A DNA stretch of 21,989 bases, from IMG/VR virus record IMGVR_UViG_3300033273_000112, positions 1 to 21,989 of that record; one strand, 5' to 3'. The DNA is from a virus. The translations under genes were made by a program, and so were the position numbers. The notes beneath the pieces were generated by a model that saw only the letters and a list, made by a program, of their open reading frames with translations, ran no database searches and had not been told where the DNA came from. The number at the start of each line of letters is the position of its first letter. Positions within the stretch are counted from its first letter, which is position 1. Positions 3,774 to 20,115 of the stretch are shown piece after piece.

Positions 3774-4747
3774 TATTTCATATCCTTCATTAATTGCGCC
3801 GCATATTGTTCATTTGTCAGACCAAGCCGCTTGGCGAGAGCGACCTGCGTTGAGGTCAGTTGCACTTTGCGTGGTTTTTTGCCGCTACGAGCAGCAGGGG
3901 CAACCACGTTGCCAGCTTGACGTTGGGGTGCAGATTCCTCAATTACAGGCCCATCATCAAACTTATCTGGGAACACGCGGCGAACCGCGTTGTCAATTTG
4001 ATTGTAATACTCTTCGCTTCTCGGATCAACACCGTTTCTAACGAGCTTCTCGTGTAGTCCGTAAGCGTACCCTGTCATTTCAGGGTCTTTTTCAAACCAA
4101 TCGTTTTTAGCCGCCCAATCCAACGCACGTTGATCGGGCTTTGGTGGCTGCGGTGTTTGCTGTTGATACTGCGGGTGCGCTACAGGCTGCTCCTGACGAG
4201 GCTGCGGCTTGTAGTTATCATAGCGTATCTTTTCAGTCTGTAACTCTGTTAGCTTTGACTGTGCTTCTATAAGCGCATCGGGATCGCCAGACTCGTAAGC
4301 AGCTTTGTATGCGGCTTTTGCCTTATCAAGCTCTGCAGCCACACGGCCTTTGGCTTGATTAACAAGAACACCTTCACCCTCTTCTAAGGTTTTAAGAAGT
4401 CTTTGATTCTCTTTCTGAACCTGCTCTGCATACTTGAGTGCCTCTTCTTGAAGTCGCGCTGCTTCTTCTTTTGCACGGCGTTCTTCATGGTACTCAAACT
4501 TTAACTGCTTAATGCGTTTTTGTACGCCTTCACTGTACTTCTCAACCTCATCGTCACTAGGGACTTGTGGTTCAGCGTTTTCGGCACGGCGAGGCTTACC
4601 CTTATCTTCTTCAGGCGTGTCGTCTACAACTTCGATTTCGAAACCGTCGTCACTATCGTCGGTATCTAATTGTTTTCCTTGGGCTTTTTCTAAAGCCTCC
4701 GCGACTGTCTCTTCTTCGAACTCTTGTTCTTCGGCTAGATTATTCAT
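3773..4747 (-). CDS. Capsid scaffolding protein
   Basis: A 324-residue protein with scaffold architecture. It has a strongly acidic N-terminus (residues 1-70, rich in E and D), then a long charged coiled coil (about 72-178), then a Pro/Gln-rich linker (about 180-206). A conserved segment with WAAKNDWFEKDPEMTGYA and EYYNQIDNAVRRVFPDKF lies at about 210-264, followed by a basic C-terminal helical tail (KKPRKVQLTSTQVALAKRLG onward, about 290-324). In phage scaffolds such a basic tail docks onto the capsid protein. The gene starts by ATGA overlap with the co-chaperonin gene upstream and is followed by structural genes and the major capsid gene. No protease domain is visible. Confidence 0.8.
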   Translation of the reverse strand: MNNLAEEQEFEEETVAEALEKAQGKQLDTDDSDDGFEIEVVDDTPEEDKGKPRRAENAEPQVPSDDEVEKYSEGVQKRIKQLKFEYHEERRAKEEAARLQEEALKYAEQVQKENQRLLKTLEEGEGVLVNQAKGRVAAELDKAKAAYKAAYESGDPDALIEAQSKLTELQTEKIRYDNYKPQPRQEQPVAHPQYQQQTPQPPKPDQRALDWAAKNDWFEKDPEMTGYAYGLHEKLVRNGVDPRSEEYYNQIDNAVRRVFPDKFDDGPVIEESAPQRQAGNVVAPAARSGKKPRKVQLTSTQVALAKRLGLTNEQYAAQLMKDMK

Positions 4748-5112
4748 GCGCGTGTGTACCCCCGTGGATCATCGACAACTGCTTCTACAGTGTCGTCGTT
4801 AATAAGTCTGAACTCTTTTCCATGAATCTTGAAGCGGGTGCCTGAATAAGAACGGAAGATCACAAAATCTCCTTCTTCACAGAACGCTCCATTTGGAAAT
4901 TTGTCTTTATCTGCATAGGCATCTGGGCCTAGCTTCATAACAAAACCGATGATCGATGCCGTTTCTTCTGCGGACTTGAGTCCATCCGGCATAAATACCC
5001 CACCTTCTGTTTTGTCGCTGACTTCGGGTACACCAATAAGGATTTTGTATCCTTGTGGTTTAGGCAGTTTAGAGGCTACCTTATCCTCTGTTTCTTTGTT
5101 TCCAGTATACAT
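4744..5112 (-). CDS. GroES-like co-chaperonin (Cpn10)
   Basis: A 122-residue protein expected to form a heptameric lid on host GroEL, as T4 gp31 does. Features: basic lead-in KPQGYKILIGVPE (about 18-30), a GroES-type mobile loop (about 31-50) carrying the GGVF tripeptide region at 37-40, which matches the GroEL-binding GGI(V)L of GroES, then IIGFVMKLGPDAY (the family's G.V..VG.G block), GDFVIFRSYSGTRFKIHGKEF (the VGDxVxF block) and an ending INDDTVEAVVDDP. It is longer than bacterial GroES (about 97 residues) and close to gp31 (111). AAGGT lies 6 bases before the ATG. It overlaps the scaffold start, so it is placed to be made together with scaffold and capsid, which suggests a job in capsid folding. 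Confidence 0.88.
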   Translation of the reverse strand: MYTGNKETEDKVASKLPKPQGYKILIGVPEVSDKTEGGVFMPDGLKSAEETASIIGFVMKLGPDAYADKDKFPNGAFCEEGDFVIFRSYSGTRFKIHGKEFRLINDDTVEAVVDDPRGYTRA

Positions 5113-13774: not shown

Positions 13775-13950
13775 TGATGGAGGATAAAATTTACACAGTA
13801 GTAAAAGATTTGCGTCAGCCAAACCTGACCGAAGATCAACGTAACTTTTTACGGCACCATGAACTGTATCACGAAGCGTATACCGTGGCGCGTCAAATCA
13901 ATCAGTCTGAAAACAAAAATAGCAATGGAGAAAACAATGAACGCTATTAA
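13774..13950 (+). CDS. Small unknown protein, 58 residues
   Basis: Not recognised. It starts MMEDKIYTVVKDLRQPNLTE, is hydrophilic and helical, and has an HHELYHEAY segment in the middle and an Asn-rich end (SENKNSNGENNERY). The ATG overlaps the TAA of the zinc-ribbon gene (TAATG), and its own end overlaps the start of the DUF3150-like gene by 14 bases, so it is embedded in a coupled operon. HHELYH resembles HExxH-like spacing, but in so short a protein I do not call it a peptidase. Confidence 0.6.
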   Translation: MMEDKIYTVVKDLRQPNLTEDQRNFLRHHELYHEAYTVARQINQSENKNSNGENNERY

Positions 13951-14851
13951 CAACATCAACTCAACCGTTAGCCAACTGGCTAACAACACCGCAACGCTTT
14001 CATCAAGCGCAATGCTTGTGAAAGTAAACATCTCAAAGTGGGAGGGTCGCAAGTTTGACAAGAAAGCGTCAAACGACATCGTGGCATCAAACGGTGCCGA
14101 ACGCGGTGCAGCTAACGTACACAAGAAGCTGCTACCAAACAGTGACGCACTCAAGGCTATCATCGAACATGCATCGGCTATGCATCGCATACATACGCAC
14201 ATGACAATGCCTTGGGCTGACAAAGGTGATCGGCTGTTACCGACAGCGCAGTACATGAAGTACCACAACGAAATGACTGCACTGCAAAACAAGTTCTACA
14301 CTCTCGTAGATACGTTTCTGGATGATTACAATTTGAGTATCGCCGAGGCGCAAGTACATCTTGGCGATATGTACAACGACAAAGACTATCCGACAGTGGA
14401 TGAGTTACGTCAGAAATTCAAATGTGTGATTGCATACGCACCTCTACCTGAGAGCGGCGACTTCCGTGTGGATTTGCCGAAAGAGGCTATCGCCGAACTG
14501 CAATCTAGCTATGTCAACTATTATGAGGAGAAGGCAAAACAGGCAATGAATGACGTGTGGGAACGTCTGTACAAGGTGTTGAAGAACATGTCGGAGAAAC
14601 TCGACTACGCCGACAAGGAGAACAAAAAAGTTTTCCGCGATACACTCGTCTCGAACGTCACCGATATGATTGAACTGCTGCGTGTTAGCAATGTGACTAA
14701 CTCTGTTCAAATGACAGCAATGGCAGATCAACTCGAAGAGGCACTGATCGGAGTCACACCTGACGCACTACGTGAGGACGACTACTTCCGTGCCGAAACA
14801 AAACGTGCAGTGGACGCGGCAATCGCAGCACTGCCATCATTAGATATGTAA
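13937..14851 (+). CDS. DUF3150-like partner of AAA+/VWA pair
   Basis: A 304-residue protein that I match from memory to the DUF3150 family. Supporting blocks: SAMLVKVNISKWEGRKFDKK (a conserved N-terminal strand-helix with W.GRK.DKKAS), VHKKLLPNSDALKAI, THMTMPWADKGDRLLPTAQY (the most family-like block), FYTLVDTFLDDY, LGDMYNDKDYPTVDELRQKF, FRVDLPKEA and a long helical C-terminus. DUF3150 proteins are typically encoded beside CobS/MoxR-like ATPases and VWA proteins in phages, exactly as here (known context, my recollection). No catalytic motif is visible. The ATG at 13937 has GGAG 6 bases upstream; codons 11-16 are palindrome copy 7. Confidence 0.65.
   Translation: MNAINNINSTVSQLANNTATLSSSAMLVKVNISKWEGRKFDKKASNDIVASNGAERGAANVHKKLLPNSDALKAIIEHASAMHRIHTHMTMPWADKGDRLLPTAQYMKYHNEMTALQNKFYTLVDTFLDDYNLSIAEAQVHLGDMYNDKDYPTVDELRQKFKCVIAYAPLPESGDFRVDLPKEAIAELQSSYVNYYEEKAKQAMNDVWERLYKVLKNMSEKLDYADKENKKVFRDTLVSNVTDMIELLRVSNVTNSVQMTAMADQLEEALIGVTPDALREDDYFRAETKRAVDAAIAALPSLDM
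13967..13984 (+). repeat. 18-bp palindrome, copy 7, inside coding sequence
   Basis: GTTAGCC AACT GGCTAAC, perfect arms, read in frame as Val-Ser-Gln-Leu-Ala-Asn, codons 11-16 of the DUF3150-like gene, 28 bases after the ATG. Confidence 0.85.
14684..14701 (+). repeat. Degenerate copy of the 18-bp palindrome
   Basis: GTTAGCAATGTGACTAAC keeps 5-bp arms (GTTAG/CTAAC) and the 18-base length. It may be a decayed copy inside the DUF3150-like gene, or chance. A second such sequence, GTTAGCTTTGCGCCTAAC, is at 15114-15131 in the ATPase gene. Confidence 0.35.
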
Positions 14852-14873
14852 TTAGTCTTTGGAGGACAACAAA

Positions 14874-15965
14874 ATGAACAATGCACAAATGATGTATGCA
14901 CTAGACTTGGACGAAACTACTGACTTGATCTCAGCAGTTGGCACAGACGTGACTGTGGTTGCGCAGGGCGACATGGGTAACGGCAAGTCTTCAATGCTAA
15001 CCGTATTGGCACAGCGTCACCCCGATCATGTACCGATTTACTTTGACGGTACGAACAAAGACTTGGGCGACATGATGCTACCTGTGATCAAGGATGCCGA
15101 GACGAAAGGATATGTTAGCTTTGCGCCTAACGAAGAAATGGGCTTGCACCTAGACAAGCCTGTGATCCTGATGATCGACGAGTACGGCAAGGCTAATCCA
15201 TCGGTCAAGAACGCGCTGAACTTGTTGATGCAAGAGAGGCAGATGTGTGGCAAGAAACTACACCCAGACAGTATTGTCTTTGCGACGACAAACAAAGGCA
15301 GCGAGGGTGTCGGTGACATATTGCTACCGCACCAGTACAATCGTGTGACTGTGGTGCAAGTACGCAAGACCGACCATATGTCTTGGATCGAATGGGGTAT
15401 CAACAACGACATTGATCACACCTTACTTGGTTGGGTCAAAGATAATCCACAGTTGTTCGCCGCATACGAAGATGTGAAAGACCCAGAAGAAAACCCATAC
15501 ATCTTCCATCCGAAAGCATCGCGTAAACATTTCGTCACGCCTAGATCTCTTCATAAAGCGTCTAACATCTTACACAGACGCGCACACATGAATGACAAGA
15601 CACTGACGGCAGCGCTGATGGGTACCATCGGTGATCGTGGTGCGATGGATTTGATGGCGTTCGTGCGACTAGCCGACAAGCTACCTACCTTGCAGTCGAT
15701 CAAAGACGATCCGAAGAATGCACTCGTTCCTGACAGTGCGGCAGCGAAAGTCATGGTCGTGTATCGTACACTGGCAAGTCTGGAAAAAGATTGGCTCAAT
15801 GCGTGGATGGATTACTTGCCACGTCTGGATGCCGAGACACAGGGCTTGTTCGCTAATGGTGTCGGGTCACCGAAGTACAGCAAGCAAGCTATGGTGATGA
15901 CGAACAAGAAGTTCACCGATTGGGCAATGGCAAACAACTACATGTTTGCTGCGGATAAAGAGTAG
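14874..15965 (+). CDS. MoxR/CobS-like AAA+ ATPase
   Basis: A 363-residue AAA+ ATPase of the MoxR/CobS type. Walker A GDMGNGKS (32-39), Walker B VILMIDE (97-103) with the E for hydrolysis, the MoxR-like signature NLLMQERQMCGKKLH after it, sensor 1 IVFATTN (134-140), and an arginine-finger candidate in LLPHQYNRV (R157), in place of the more usual A..DRF. A helical lid region follows to the C-terminus. It would act as a hexameric remodelling ATPase whose co-factor is a VWA protein. The true start is the ATG at 14874, 8 bases after GGAGG. It is followed after a palindrome by the VWA gene. Confidence 0.85.
   Translation: MNNAQMMYALDLDETTDLISAVGTDVTVVAQGDMGNGKSSMLTVLAQRHPDHVPIYFDGTNKDLGDMMLPVIKDAETKGYVSFAPNEEMGLHLDKPVILMIDEYGKANPSVKNALNLLMQERQMCGKKLHPDSIVFATTNKGSEGVGDILLPHQYNRVTVVQVRKTDHMSWIEWGINNDIDHTLLGWVKDNPQLFAAYEDVKDPEENPYIFHPKASRKHFVTPRSLHKASNILHRRAHMNDKTLTAALMGTIGDRGAMDLMAFVRLADKLPTLQSIKDDPKNALVPDSAAAKVMVVYRTLASLEKDWLNAWMDYLPRLDAETQGLFANGVGSPKYSKQAMVMTNKKFTDWAMANNYMFAADKE
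15114..15131 (+). repeat. Degenerate palindrome copy in ATPase gene
   Basis: GTTAGCTTTGCGCCTAAC has the outer GTTAG/CTAAC arms and the 18-base length, but no inner arm match. It may be a decayed family member or chance. Confidence 0.25.
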
Positions 15966-15982
15966 TTAGCCGATTGGCTAAC
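15965..15982 (+). repeat. 18-bp palindrome between ATPase and VWA genes
   Basis: GTTAGCC GATT GGCTAAC, perfect arms. It starts on the last base of the ATPase stop codon (TAG) and ends 17 bases before the VWA ATG, just ahead of the ribosome site, the position that could control the ratio of the two partners. Confidence 0.88.
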
Positions 15983-15999
15983 AGAAATGGAGAACAACA

Positions 16000-17214
16000 A
16001 TGTTGATGCTTAATAATCTGACTGAGGAGCAACGGCTGTCAAAGGCCGTTGTCAAAATTATGGGTCATGCACCGTATCTATCTGCGGTGTTGATGATCGG
16101 CAAACGCCAGATCACAGACGATCCGAAAACAACAACTGCGTACACAAATGGCAAAGACGAGTTCTATTCACGTCAGTTTGTGGCGAAGCTAAACGATGCC
16201 GAGTTACGCTTTCTTGTGCTGCATGAGGTGTATCACAAACTGTACAAGCACCTGACCACGTGGAGACATCTCTGGAAGGAAGACCCACGCCGTGCCAATA
16301 AAGCCTGCGATCACGTGATCAACATCAAGATCGTAGACGAGTTCAGCCAAGACAAGTTCGCTACAATGACAGGCGCACTATCAACTGGCTGTTACGACAG
16401 AAAGTACGTGGGTATGAGTTCTCAGGAGGTGTACGACTTACTGCCAGAAGAATACGGCGGTGGCGGTGGTCGTCGTCGTGGTGACGATGAAGGTGAAGGT
16501 GGACAGGAGCCGTTCGACGATCACGATTGGGAAGCAGCCGAAGAAATGACTGACGAAGATAAGCGTGAGTTGGCACGTGAGATCGACGAAGCTGTGCGTC
16601 AAGGCAATACGGTTGCAGGTAAGATGGGCAGCGGTGGCAACCGTGACCTAGAAGATTTGCTGACACCACAAGTCGATTGGCGTGAGGTACTACGTGACTT
16701 CATCACAGACACGTGTGCAGGTAAAGACTTCAGCACATACAACAAGCTGAACCGTAGATATGTCGGCATGGGTGTCGCTATGCCAAGTGGTATCACCGAG
16801 CAGGTTGGCGAGTTGGTGTTGGCTGTTGACACGTCTGGTTCGATTGGTCGTACCGAGTTAGCCACGTGGCTAACGGAGATCAAAGAAATCTGCGACACGG
16901 TGCGTCCCGAAGCTGTACGCATACTATACTGGGATACGCGAGTATGTGCAGACGAGTACTACAGTGAACACGAACTGGACGACGTAGTGAAGTCAACTAA
17001 ACCTGCAGGGGGTGGTGGCACTGACGTAACATGCGTCACCGATTACCTCAAAGAAAAGCGCATCAACGCACAAGCAGCAATCGTTCTCACAGACGGATAC
17101 ATCTGGGGCGGTTGGGGTCAGTGGACTATGCCTGTGCTGTGGACAATCTTGGATAACGACAACGCTAATCCAGACTGCGGCAAGACAGTCCACATCAAGT
17201 CGAGGGATATGTAG
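16000..17214 (+). CDS. HExxH metallopeptidase-VWA fusion (DUF2201-like)
   Basis: A 404-residue protein with two domains. The N-terminal part (about 1-150) is the putative metallopeptidase region of DUF2201 proteins: LHEVYHKLYKH gives HExxH at 75-79, and RANKACDHVIN (about 98-108) matches the family's downstream A.D..IN block that holds a third ligand. A Gly/Asp/Glu-rich linker follows (about 152-205). The C-terminal VWA domain (about 270-404) has a complete MIDAS: DTSGS (277-281), GGTD with Thr341, and LTDG with Asp365. In known systems the VWA protein is the adaptor of the MoxR ATPase. GGAG lies 7 bases before the ATG. Palindrome copy 8 falls inside, encoding LATWLT (about 287-292). Confidence 0.87.
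   Translation: MLMLNNLTEEQRLSKAVVKIMGHAPYLSAVLMIGKRQITDDPKTTTAYTNGKDEFYSRQFVAKLNDAELRFLVLHEVYHKLYKHLTTWRHLWKEDPRRANKACDHVINIKIVDEFSQDKFATMTGALSTGCYDRKYVGMSSQEVYDLLPEEYGGGGGRRRGDDEGEGGQEPFDDHDWEAAEEMTDEDKRELAREIDEAVRQGNTVAGKMGSGGNRDLEDLLTPQVDWREVLRDFITDTCAGKDFSTYNKLNRRYVGMGVAMPSGITEQVGELVLAVDTSGSIGRTELATWLTEIKEICDTVRPEAVRILYWDTRVCADEYYSEHELDDVVKSTKPAGGGGTDVTCVTDYLKEKRINAQAAIVLTDGYIWGGWGQWTMPVLWTILDNDNANPDCGKTVHIKSRDM
16857..16874 (+). repeat. 18-bp palindrome inside VWA gene (copy 8)
   Basis: GTTAGCC ACGT GGCTAAC, identical to the copy at 12695-12712, read in frame as part of LATWLT, six residues after the MIDAS DTSGS. Confidence 0.85.
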
Positions 17215-17974: not shown

Positions 17975-19063
17975 ATGACACTAACATATACAGCATTCAA
18001 CACGTTCGAGGACGTGGTAAAGCACTACGAAGACGTGAAACCAATACGTGAGCGTGGAGATGGTACGAGCCGCAACGTGCGGCCTATCGGTGACCGTGCG
18101 CGTAAGTGGGAGACTATCCAGAAGATCAGCCGAAACTGCTACGTTATCAGTTGTGGACACGAACGTGGTAATGAGTTGTTCCCATACTGGGGAAACATGG
18201 AGTACGACGAAGACTTAGATAAACATGTACTTGTATCACATGGTGCGAAGCTAGAAGATTACGCACCGATTGTATGGCGCAAGCGTAAGGATGGTACAGT
18301 CACCGTCACCATTAACAATATGACAGGTACAGGGTACAGCATCTCACACTATTCCATGCTCGAAAGACACACGCCGAAGGGTATGGCGTTTGTCCACAAT
18401 GGGGATGGTAAGCAGTATATACGTCTGCTTAACAGTGGCACTGATCCTGACTACAGGTACAGCTTTCGAGGTAAGAAGTCAGATGATTTCTACCTTGCCA
18501 AGAACAAGACCGTGCCACGTGGGGAGTGGGTGAAGTATAAAGGTAGCGATGCACACTGGCACAAGTGGAAACGTCCGACTGATGACAATTCAGCTTTGAC
18601 ATTCATACAGACAAGTGTGGGTGTGTGGAGGCACGATGGTATATCTGGCCGTCCCTTACCAACAGGGCCGAAAGTAAACAAGACGCTGAAGGCTAAGTTC
18701 AAACCTGCGCTCGACAAATTTTTCGAATGGGGCATGACTATGACACCATTGCTACCACTAGGAATGGAGTACAACAGAGAGAAGATAGGTGAGATGCAAC
18801 GGTATTTTTGTGATCGTGAGAACCTGCATCACTACTCAGCTTGGCAATCAGAGTGGGCGCGTGAGATATTGAAAGACGAGAACCACCCAATGCGTCTGAA
18901 CTATTGGATCATGTTTGCGGAAAGCACAAGAGAGGGGTGGTATCTGAACGTGTCCTATCCGATCAAAGAGATAAAAACCAAAGAGGAGTTCAGCAGGATA
19001 CGTGCGCGGTACAATTCGTACATGAATAACAATGCAGGGTTTATGGTTAAATCCGAGCGTTAG
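17975..19063 (+). CDS. Unrecognised protein, 362 residues
   Basis: I do not recognise this protein. It has a charged start (MTLTYTAFNTFEDVVKHYED), a beta-rich middle (RKRKDGTVTVTINNMTGTGY, then HNGDGKQYIRLL), a GSDAHWHKWKRPTDDNSALT segment with clustered His/Trp, and a helical C-terminal half with YFCDRENLHHYSAWQSEWAR. There is no membrane segment, Walker motif or nuclease motif that I can identify. It starts 2 bases after the previous stop, with AAGGAG as the ribosome site (17963-17968). Its stop codon lies within palindrome copy 9. Together with the next 294-residue gene it forms the downstream part of the AAA+/VWA operon, so it may be a substrate or effector, which is inference from position only. 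Confidence 0.65.
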   Translation: MTLTYTAFNTFEDVVKHYEDVKPIRERGDGTSRNVRPIGDRARKWETIQKISRNCYVISCGHERGNELFPYWGNMEYDEDLDKHVLVSHGAKLEDYAPIVWRKRKDGTVTVTINNMTGTGYSISHYSMLERHTPKGMAFVHNGDGKQYIRLLNSGTDPDYRYSFRGKKSDDFYLAKNKTVPRGEWVKYKGSDAHWHKWKRPTDDNSALTFIQTSVGVWRHDGISGRPLPTGPKVNKTLKAKFKPALDKFFEWGMTMTPLLPLGMEYNREKIGEMQRYFCDRENLHHYSAWQSEWAREILKDENHPMRLNYWIMFAESTREGWYLNVSYPIKEIKTKEEFSRIRARYNSYMNNNAGFMVKSER

Positions 19064-19082: not shown

Positions 19083-19205
19083 TCGTAAGGCGTGAGTGCG
19101 TTGGGTCACTGGACACACATTGTATTACCCTTAACCACGTCAGTGTAAGTCTCGTTTAATCCTTACGAGTGGCTGCACACAGGGGGAGCTGTATATGGTT
19201 CCCCC
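19083..19205 (+). ncRNA. Candidate structured RNA in intergenic gap
   Basis: Between the 362- and 294-residue genes lie about 167 bases with nested complementarity. TCGTAAGG (19083-19090) pairs with CCTTACGA (19161-19168), and inside it CACTG (about 19107-19111) pairs with CAGTG (19141-19145). Downstream, GGGGGA (19182-19187) pairs with TCCCCC (19200-19205), a stem that extends with wobbles to about 9 bp. There is no T tract, so a terminator is unlikely. It could be a leader or a small RNA. The family is unknown to me, and the fold is read by eye. Confidence 0.4.
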
Positions 19206-19230
19206 ACCTCACTTAACAATGGAGAATGAT

Positions 19231-20115
19231 ATGAGTGAAAGACCTAGAACAGTAAGAGAACTTCTTGCAGAAGCGGAACATTTCTTACCAGAAAACATGA
19301 ACTGCCCGAACGCACAAGAGTTTGCCGAGGCAGTCGCTGAACAACTACGTGCAGAGTACGCACCCAAAGTAGCAACAGGTGTAGAGTGGTACATATACCG
19401 CAAAGAAGAACCGTTTGCTATGGGCTACGTTGGCTACGCCGATTACAAATACAGCGGCGATACCGAAAAAACTTACACAGTGTTCTCTCGCAAGATACAG
19501 AATGCCAAGTACGGTCATGGTCGTATGGAAAATTCTGCATCGACAAAACACTTTGACAAAGCGGTCAAGAACGCACGTAGATATCTGGTGCCGTATACAC
19601 TGCCAGAGATCATCAAAGCCACACGTAGTGATGCGCGAGATAAGTTTGGCAAACCTAAGAACGATGCAACCATTGCAGCTAAACATTCACGTCAGTTGTT
19701 GATTAGTGACTTTACCAAGGGTGAGAAGTCTGGCCTCGAAACAGAGTTGCGCCACTTGCTTGATACAGGCCACACGTTTGTAAACGAAGGGTTCAAGGCA
19801 GACCTTGTTACTATGTTTGCAGAATGGGATGTATCTAGAATTAAGGAACGTGAGAATCCTGTGGCAGACGTAGTGTACATCAAGCAGACACGTACAGGTG
19901 TACAGGTTGGCGTTATGCCTACGGTCAACATGACTAGCTATTTCTGGTCGAATGCAGAAGCCCAAGACTACACGTGGTATACACAAGAGGATACACCGCA
20001 GCACATTCTTGAAGGTATCACGAAACTGAACATGGTTCCGAGTGGGCATTTCGTCGATGGTGTTGGGTACAGACCAGAACATTTGGATAATGTTTACTAT
20101 GTCTACGCTCAGTAA
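19231..20115 (+). CDS. Unrecognised protein, 294 residues
   Basis: Not recognised. It starts MSERPRTVRELLAEAEHFLP (helical), then a Tyr-rich beta segment (VEWYIYRKEEPFAMGYVGYA), a basic helix-rich middle (around TKHFDKAVKNARRYL), and a C-terminus ending DGVGYRPEHLDNVYYVYAQ. There is no catalytic motif. I choose the ATG at 19231, which has GGAG 6 bases upstream; an in-frame ATG at 19195 lies within a GC hairpin and has no ribosome site. It is the last large gene of the stretch and the next gene overlaps its end. Confidence 0.6.
   Translation: MSERPRTVRELLAEAEHFLPENMNCPNAQEFAEAVAEQLRAEYAPKVATGVEWYIYRKEEPFAMGYVGYADYKYSGDTEKTYTVFSRKIQNAKYGHGRMENSASTKHFDKAVKNARRYLVPYTLPEIIKATRSDARDKFGKPKNDATIAAKHSRQLLISDFTKGEKSGLETELRHLLDTGHTFVNEGFKADLVTMFAEWDVSRIKERENPVADVVYIKQTRTGVQVGVMPTVNMTSYFWSNAEAQDYTWYTQEDTPQHILEGITKLNMVPSGHFVDGVGYRPEHLDNVYYVYAQ

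Follow-up and report, generated by a model that had tools for sequence, protein, structure and literature searches.

Three adjacent genes of a phage genome fragment, hereafter D, A and V, encode a DUF3150-like protein, an AAA+ ATPase of the MoxR/midasin type and a zincin-like domain fused to a VWA domain, and genes of these three kinds are inherited together in phages and recur on plasmids. Our tentative reading, which we place a little short of an even chance, is that D, A and V form a single AAA+ remodelling machine of mobile elements in which A would be the motor, V a clasp acting through its MIDAS and D likely the adaptor, with a target probably in the DNA metabolism of the element. Two of the parts, A and V, are already known, and the third, D, is newly tied in here. 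It belongs with the A–V pair well beyond this phage, in other phages, on conjugative plasmids and probably in elements of the IncC type. The trio had been put forward in an earlier note as the leading candidate for an undescribed system. That description no longer applies, because A and V correspond to the core genes gp24 and gp25 of N4-like phages (PMC4193335), and a comparable pair from jumbo phages was described by Iyer et al. (2021) (PMC7824862).

The three genes and their products

The window, that is, the whole 21,989-bp IMG/VR virus fragment analysed, carries its structural and packaging genes in the leftward direction, with a portal-like gene at 5.4–7.8 kb and the terminase at 8.9–10.4 kb. 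A rightward non-structural operon begins at 11.4 kb and contains D, A and V, three intact co-directional ORFs that are each preceded by a GGAG Shine–Dalgarno-like site (Table 1). The composition of the trio at 13937–17214 and its motifs agree with what the earlier note had read from the DNA, as does its location in a non-structural operon. The same note had assigned the trio a promoter of its own, and this part is rejected: there are 22 promoter-like sites compared with 17.7 ± 4.3 in shuffled sequence, and a dedicated promoter is unsupported because such sites are equally frequent in the shuffles.

Table 1. Genes and predicted functional sites of the D–A–V trio (window coordinates).
Feature	Position	Strand	Basis or conservation
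D, DUF3150-like protein, 304 aa, predicted third component/adaptor	13937–14851	+	Pfam, hhalign, AF2 model
A, AAA+ ATPase, MoxR/midasin type, N4 gp24 homologue, 363 aa	14874–15965	+	phrog_1297, phmmer, PDB profile
Possible alternative start of A (TTG)	14859	+	ORF reading
Walker A GDMGNGKS, A residues 32–39	14967–14990	+	G35 in 62/62, K38 in 61/62
Walker B acidic pair D102 E103, in ILMIDE	15177–15182	+	D in 62/62; second position E, with D in 8 rows
Sensor-1 asparagine N140 of A	15291–15293	+	61/62, one row gapped
Arginine R224 of A, candidate sensor-2 or arginine finger	15543–15545	+	invariant, 62/62; role predicted
V, zincin-like domain fused to VWA domain, N4 gp25 homologue, 404 aa	16000–17214	+	PF13203, PF09967, phrog_1314, AF2
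Zinc motif HEVYH, V residues 75–79	16222–16236	+	H75 and E76 in 67/69, H79 in 68/69
D104 of V, candidate third zinc ligand	16309–16311	+	68/69; role predicted
MIDAS DTSGS, V residues 277–281	16828–16842	+	D277, S279, S281 invariant, 69/69
MIDAS threonine T341 of V	17020–17022	+	69/69
MIDAS aspartate D365 of V	17092–17094	+	69/69

The ATPase A is matched by phrog_1297 (“ATPase”) with E = 4.6e-42 in PHROGs and by N4 gp24 with 5e-9 in phmmer. The Walker A, Walker B and sensor 1 motifs of the MoxR class are all present and nearly invariant among its relatives. The AAA+ matches of A in Pfam lie below the cut-offs (14.1 bits for AAA_5, cut-off 22); AAA_5 is matched by 33 of 50 relatives of A at E ≤ 0.01, and the plasmid homologues score above its cut-off. 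The best solved relatives of the A profile in the PDB are the AAA domains of midasin (4e-19) and NorQ (0.0018). A is also related to CobS-type ATPases (hhalign E = 8.5e-9), and the searches did not place it outside the MoxR/CobS group to which the earlier note had assigned it.

Both domains of V score well above their Pfam cut-offs, as expected from the earlier proposal of a peptidase–VWA fusion: DUF2201_N (PF13203) is matched with 79.7 bits (cut-off 23.2, E = 3.5e-22) and DUF2201/VWA-like (PF09967) with 56 bits (cut-off 26.4, E = 5.7e-15). The protein carries the signature HExxHxxxxH...D and a complete MIDAS. It matches N4 gp25 (phmmer, 3e-17) and phrog_1314 (3.3e-84), a PHROGs family labelled “HNH endonuclease”. 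No PDB sequence was matched by the V profile. In the AlphaFold2 model, residues 266–404 resemble VWA domains with Z of about 13, and V ends with this fold; the MIDAS domain of MDN1 is among the best Foldseek matches of V, where many VWA domains score alike.

The third protein, D, matches DUF3150 (PF11348) weakly, with 19.8 bits and thus under the curated cut-off of 24.9, and for this reason we call it DUF3150-like and regard it as a remote relative. The same family is matched by 54 of 63 relatives of D, at best with 1e-7, and the profile of the D family aligns with canonical DUF3150 over the N-terminal half (hhalign E = 4.6e-7). The AlphaFold2 model of D (pLDDT 82.8) is predicted to consist of long helices (residues 103–145 and 182–222) and short strands, and it matches the model of a viral DUF3150 protein, A0A6J7WV52, with a TM score of 0.80. 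A sequence search of the PDB with D gave no match, and the structure search gave no significant match beyond helical bundles of a common kind, a negative that carries no weight. A 275-aa gene adjoining an AAA-ATPase in Mycobacterium phage Dylan showed a weak structural similarity to D (E = 0.02), but there is no V in that phage and the gene was not used as a relative. We found no mention of DUF3150 in the open-access literature.

Co-inheritance in phages and relatives on plasmids

IMG/VR was scanned independently with V and with D, and the D–A–V arrangement was then found by profile searches. The order D–A–V is present in 135 fetched viral loci, which represent approximately 60–70 distinct lineages, while other loci in the clade are cut by contig ends. 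The co-occurrence of the three genes is far above chance, which bears out the expectation of the earlier note that they stay together in related phages, and each of ten contigs of 58–66 kb contains exactly one D. There are 106 distinct complete triples, including those of cyanophage MinM2 and three plasmids, and they correspond to 63 clusters of V at 90% identity. In the more distant MinM2 the trio is rearranged (MoxR...DUF3150...VWA). HTVC027P and DSL-LC04, which are relatives by terminase, contain no V, so that not all members of the wider group of phages carry the trio.

The two better known components track each other in evolution more closely than they track D. The distance correlation between A and V is r = 0.86, compared to 0.43–0.83 for A or V with control genes. 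The correlations of D with A (0.64) and with V (0.69) are no better than those of D with control genes (0.57–0.72). This pattern suggests that A and V constitute the core and that D is an addition to it. At least 692 phage records contain a V-like protein. A hidden D was sought in the whole records of N4, DrSchubert, S-TIM61, D505 and a Rhizobium phage, all of which have V, and none was detectable, indicating that D is not required everywhere.

In N4, gp24 and gp25 count among the 14 genes that form the core of N4-like phages, belong to the middle transcripts and are without known function (PMC4193335). They are homologous to A and V, adjacent and in the same A–V order, and retain all zinc and MIDAS residues, but their identity is only about 20% and a D is not detectable. 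A MoxR and metallopeptidase-vWA pair with the same two-protein architecture was assigned to jumbo phages (group 2.2) by Iyer et al. (2021), who proposed a role in virion assembly; the available part of that study reports no third component, and the proposed role is unsupported by the gene context found here (PMC7824862).

Outside phages, relatives of D were found on 44 plasmid records, chiefly from Burkholderiales. All ten plasmid loci that we read have the order A–D–V, and in six of the ten, T4SS genes lie within a few kb. Additional A–D–V operons are present in Cupriavidus, a Cloacimonadota genome and others, and one of the scans of genome contigs yielded only three loci. Canonical DUF3150 proteins exceed the cut-off in 8 of the 398 Pseudomonadota genomes sampled, and relatives of these proteins are found on 1,168 plasmid records, of which 978 are typed as conjugative. 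A VWA protein is located near the DUF3150 gene in all six genome loci read and an AAA_5-type ATPase in five of them; when two plasmids are included, the counts are 8 of 8 for the VWA protein and 7 of 8 for the AAA+ ATPase. RecT and YqaJ are found at two of the six genome loci. On the IncC plasmid the ATPase gene is followed by an unknown gene, ssb, bet, an exonuclease gene, DUF3150 and VWA, and on pPHE24 the order is ATPase, DUF3150, VWA. Of the six VWA partners in genomes, five have HExxH ahead of the VWA domain and one (locus L214) lacks it. Our search of the open-access literature found nothing on the IncC operon.

The IncC-type genes thus resemble the phage trio in having three remotely homologous components, with HExxH and MIDAS in most of the VWA partners, and differ from it by their CobT-like VWA proteins, their gene order and their ssb–bet–exo operon. 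Judged by profile comparison, A, D and V are likely all homologous to the AAA+, DUF3150 and VWA proteins of the canonical branch. The hhalign scores of A and D are those given above, and the link through V is the weakest (2.4e-4, probability 44%, with the two HExxH motifs aligned). It is conceivable, and we advance it with more reserve than the machine itself, that the D–A–V of phages, the A–D–V of Burkholderiales plasmids and the IncC-type AAA+/DUF3150/VWA genes all belong to a single ancient remodelling machine with three components, which would serve DNA recombination and replication in mobile elements. In such a machine DUF3150 would be a dedicated adaptor, and the zincin domain would repeatedly have given up proteolysis to become a clasp without catalysis.

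The zinc site and the MIDAS of V

The conservation of V was assessed in 69 proteins from phages and plasmids, and eight more plasmid or genome copies extended the set to 77. The MIDAS is kept in 77 of 77 copies. The zinc signature HExxHxxxxH...D is intact in every phage copy examined and has been lost independently twice on plasmids, in the Paraburkholderia dioscoreae/PGU19 lineage (LKVMQ, with D104Q) and in Variovorax (ATVLH). The ratio dN/dS could be measured in the first of these two lineages, where a comparison of two Paraburkholderia copies lacking the zinc motif gave 0.089 for V, 0.035 for A and 0.040 for D. The value for V signifies that the protein is still under purifying selection without the zinc site. 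With the MIDAS never lost and the zinc site dispensed with in two plasmid lineages, remodelling rather than proteolysis appears to be the constant activity, and we conclude from the sequences that AAA+/MIDAS action would be the constant function and proteolysis an optional one.

The MoxR–vWA pairs of bacterial ternary systems have been linked to biological conflict, and the earlier note raised this link for the trio. The VMAP MoxR–vWA ternary conflict systems of Kaur et al. (2020), which are characterized by rapid vWA evolution, likewise combine a third component with MoxR and vWA, and their genes are arranged as in the phage trio (PMC7159879). The trio differs in lacking a VMAP domain, a C-terminal effector on V and accelerated vWA evolution. 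D has no VMAP-type Pfam match up to E = 1 and V ends in the VWA fold, and assignment to the VMAP systems was rejected. Over 103 close pairs of V, the identity is 0.929 in the VWA domain compared to 0.924 in the peptidase domain, such that the VWA evolves no faster than the rest of V and a general VWA hypervariability is rejected as well. PADLOC models matched D, A and V of the window with 0 families. Given this result, the lack of fast evolution in the VWA and the core position of the genes in phages, neither a defence or conflict system nor the proposed link to conflict is supported.

Site of action, proposed mechanism and alternatives

At every viral locus where both are visible, the trio and the packaging genes are encoded on opposite strands (same strand in 0 of 34 and 0 of 32). 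The genes downstream of the trio in viral loci encode VRR-NUC, DNA polymerase A, a PD-(D/E)XK nuclease and a helicase-like protein. In Vibrio phage D505 the A–V pair is followed by a Dda helicase and a DNA polymerase, in the Rhizobium phage V is followed by DNA polymerase I, and primases are also among the DNA-metabolism neighbours. There are exceptions: the A–V pair of cyanophage S-TIM61 lies amid structural genes and Hsp20, and in a Vequintavirus the MoxR gene does not adjoin V. To our knowledge, the non-structural or early regions of phages always contain replication genes, and proximity to such genes therefore carries moderate weight at most and is weak alone. The viral neighbours combined with the ssb–bet–exo genes of IncC suggest action in DNA recombination or replication.

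In the mechanism that we propose, A would assemble into a hexameric motor and V would be its VWA co-chaperone, with the MIDAS gripping a protein through a divalent metal. The zincin-like N-domain of V may serve as a second substrate-binding element, possibly one that cleaves in most copies, and D, likely the adaptor, would either give the machine its target or dock the machine onto it. ATP hydrolysis in A, transmitted through V within a physical complex, would pull or twist the target apart, as in Mdn1/midasin and NorQ–NorD. The logic of motor and clasp is suggested by midasin and NorQ being the best PDB relatives of A and by MDN1-MIDAS being among the best structural matches of V. In these two known systems an AAA+ motor and a VWA/MIDAS partner likewise remodel a target; they differ in that their targets are known and that no zincin domain or DUF3150 partner is noted (PMC13036017, PMC8837202). 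The action would fall into the early or middle phase, that of DNA metabolism, and would most likely concern a nucleoprotein complex of recombination or replication that belongs to the element or to its host.

The machine could alternatively serve host takeover or counter-defence by extracting or cleaving a host protein, for example from a transcription, replication or defence complex. The non-late position of the trio opposite the packaging genes, the middle-phase expression of the N4 pair, the zinc site retained by all phage copies and the presence of the genes on plasmids that enter new hosts, several of them conjugative, are compatible with such a role. We nonetheless consider it unlikely, as PADLOC recognized none of the three proteins of the window, the pair is core and slowly evolving in phages with a VWA no faster than the rest, and plasmid copies persist without the zinc site. 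The persistence of these copies also bears on a regulated metalloprotease, to which D would deliver a substrate for unfolding by A and cleavage by the zincin domain of V. Conservation of HExxHxxxxH...D across the phage copies agrees with this scheme, but the site is lost in two plasmid lineages, in the measurable one of which purifying selection continues, and HExxH is absent from one canonical DUF3150 partner while the MIDAS is never lost, which makes a regulated metalloprotease improbable.

A function in metal insertion or as a cofactor chaperone, in the manner of CobS–CobT or NorQ–NorD, appears quite improbable. The relationship of A to CobS-type ATPases and NorQ would fit, and a study of archaeal tailed viruses treated viral AAA+/VWA pairs as CobST, proposed that they hijack the host CobN to raise cobalamin, and remarked that cyanophage “CobT” carries a peptidase annotation (PMC8651126). 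Against the assignment of our proteins as cobaltochelatase subunits, Pfam up to E = 1 lists neither CobT nor CobT_C for V and no CbbQ_C for A, and there is no cobalamin gene in the neighbourhoods read. Very improbable in this clade is a virion-assembly chaperone with proteolytic processing, for which the jumbo-phage study offers a proposal and the precedent of the MoxR–vWA pair of Acidianus two-tailed virus (PMC7824862) and S-TIM61 a pair near structural genes, because the trio is never on the strand of the terminase and packaging genes, N4 gp24 and gp25 are middle genes absent from the listed virion proteins (PMC4193335), and plasmids that carry the trio build no virion.

The remodelling machine that we favour joins two separate unknowns, the core genes gp24 and gp25 of N4-like phages and the uncharacterised AAA+/DUF3150/VWA genes of IncC. 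The results argue against the annotation of gp25-like proteins as “HNH endonuclease” and against a virion-assembly role for the A–V pair in this phage group. If the proposal is correct, the machine would be expected to act in DNA recombination or replication and to depend on the MIDAS, and at least some copies should manage without zinc catalysis.

Plasmid copies without the zinc motif and divergence of the VWA part

Plasmids carry copies of V, the zincin-like and VWA fusion protein of the trio, in which the HExxH motif is destroyed and the MIDAS is intact (table). In a Paraburkholderia pair, the motif-less V gene is under purifying selection. Among the closest relatives of the window (L003, L007 and L010), the VWA part of V is more diverged than its neighbours, and the comparison of the window with L003 gave 0.78 for VWA, 0.98 for the AAA+ ATPase (A) and 0.97 for the DUF3150-like protein (D). 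The divergence of these sequences hints at local recombination.

Coexisting DUF3150 branches and labels of gp25-like proteins

A trio of the D type and a canonical DUF3150 gene are both present in genome G445 (contigs C181 and C55), and the two branches thus coexist in one genome. Proteins resembling N4 gp25, to which V belongs, are labelled "HNH endonuclease" in PHROGs (phrog_1314) and RefSeq (N4 gp25 and relatives), and "homing endonuclease" in one phage; the Pfam matches listed for V comprise the zincin-like domain and VWA, with HNH absent from the list.

Repeated palindrome and unassigned genes

The palindrome GTTAGCC-N4-GGCTAAC is repeated in the window in 9 perfect and 2 one-mismatch copies, confined to the rightward non-structural half and mostly with gene starts nearby. 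With up to 2 mismatches allowed, 14 were found in the window compared to 0.03 expected. The palindrome has an orientation, with adenine following the left arm in 10 of 11 copies, and when translated it reads V-S-H-T-A-N or V-S-Q-L-A-N at protein N-termini. Close relatives share the palindrome, with 27 of 219 loci containing it, and the array could represent operators or an RNA hairpin.

Judged by its position and its resemblance to annotated GroES genes of MinM2 (a cyanophage with a rearranged trio), HTVC027P and DSL-LC04, the 122-aa product looks like a GroES-type co-chaperonin. Pfam and PHROG searches with the 362-aa and 306-aa proteins yielded nothing significant; these conserved proteins may act in the same pathway as the trio.

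Locations of V copies, palindromes and unassigned genes
Feature	Location	Remark
Plasmid V	L183 10911-12188	HExxH destroyed, MIDAS intact
Plasmid V	L227 3911-5233	HExxH destroyed, MIDAS intact
Plasmid V	L184 8938-10224	HExxH destroyed, MIDAS intact
Plasmid V	L232 4438-5724	HExxH destroyed, MIDAS intact
Palindrome copies	window 11372, 12029, 12695, 13046, 13296, 13538, 13967, 15965, 16857, 19059, 20742	18 bp each
122-aa gene	window 4744-5112	among structural genes; GroES-type co-chaperonin candidate
362-aa protein	window 17975-19063	downstream of trio; conserved in 39/74 representative loci
306-aa protein	window 19195-20115	downstream of trio; conserved in 52/74 representative loci
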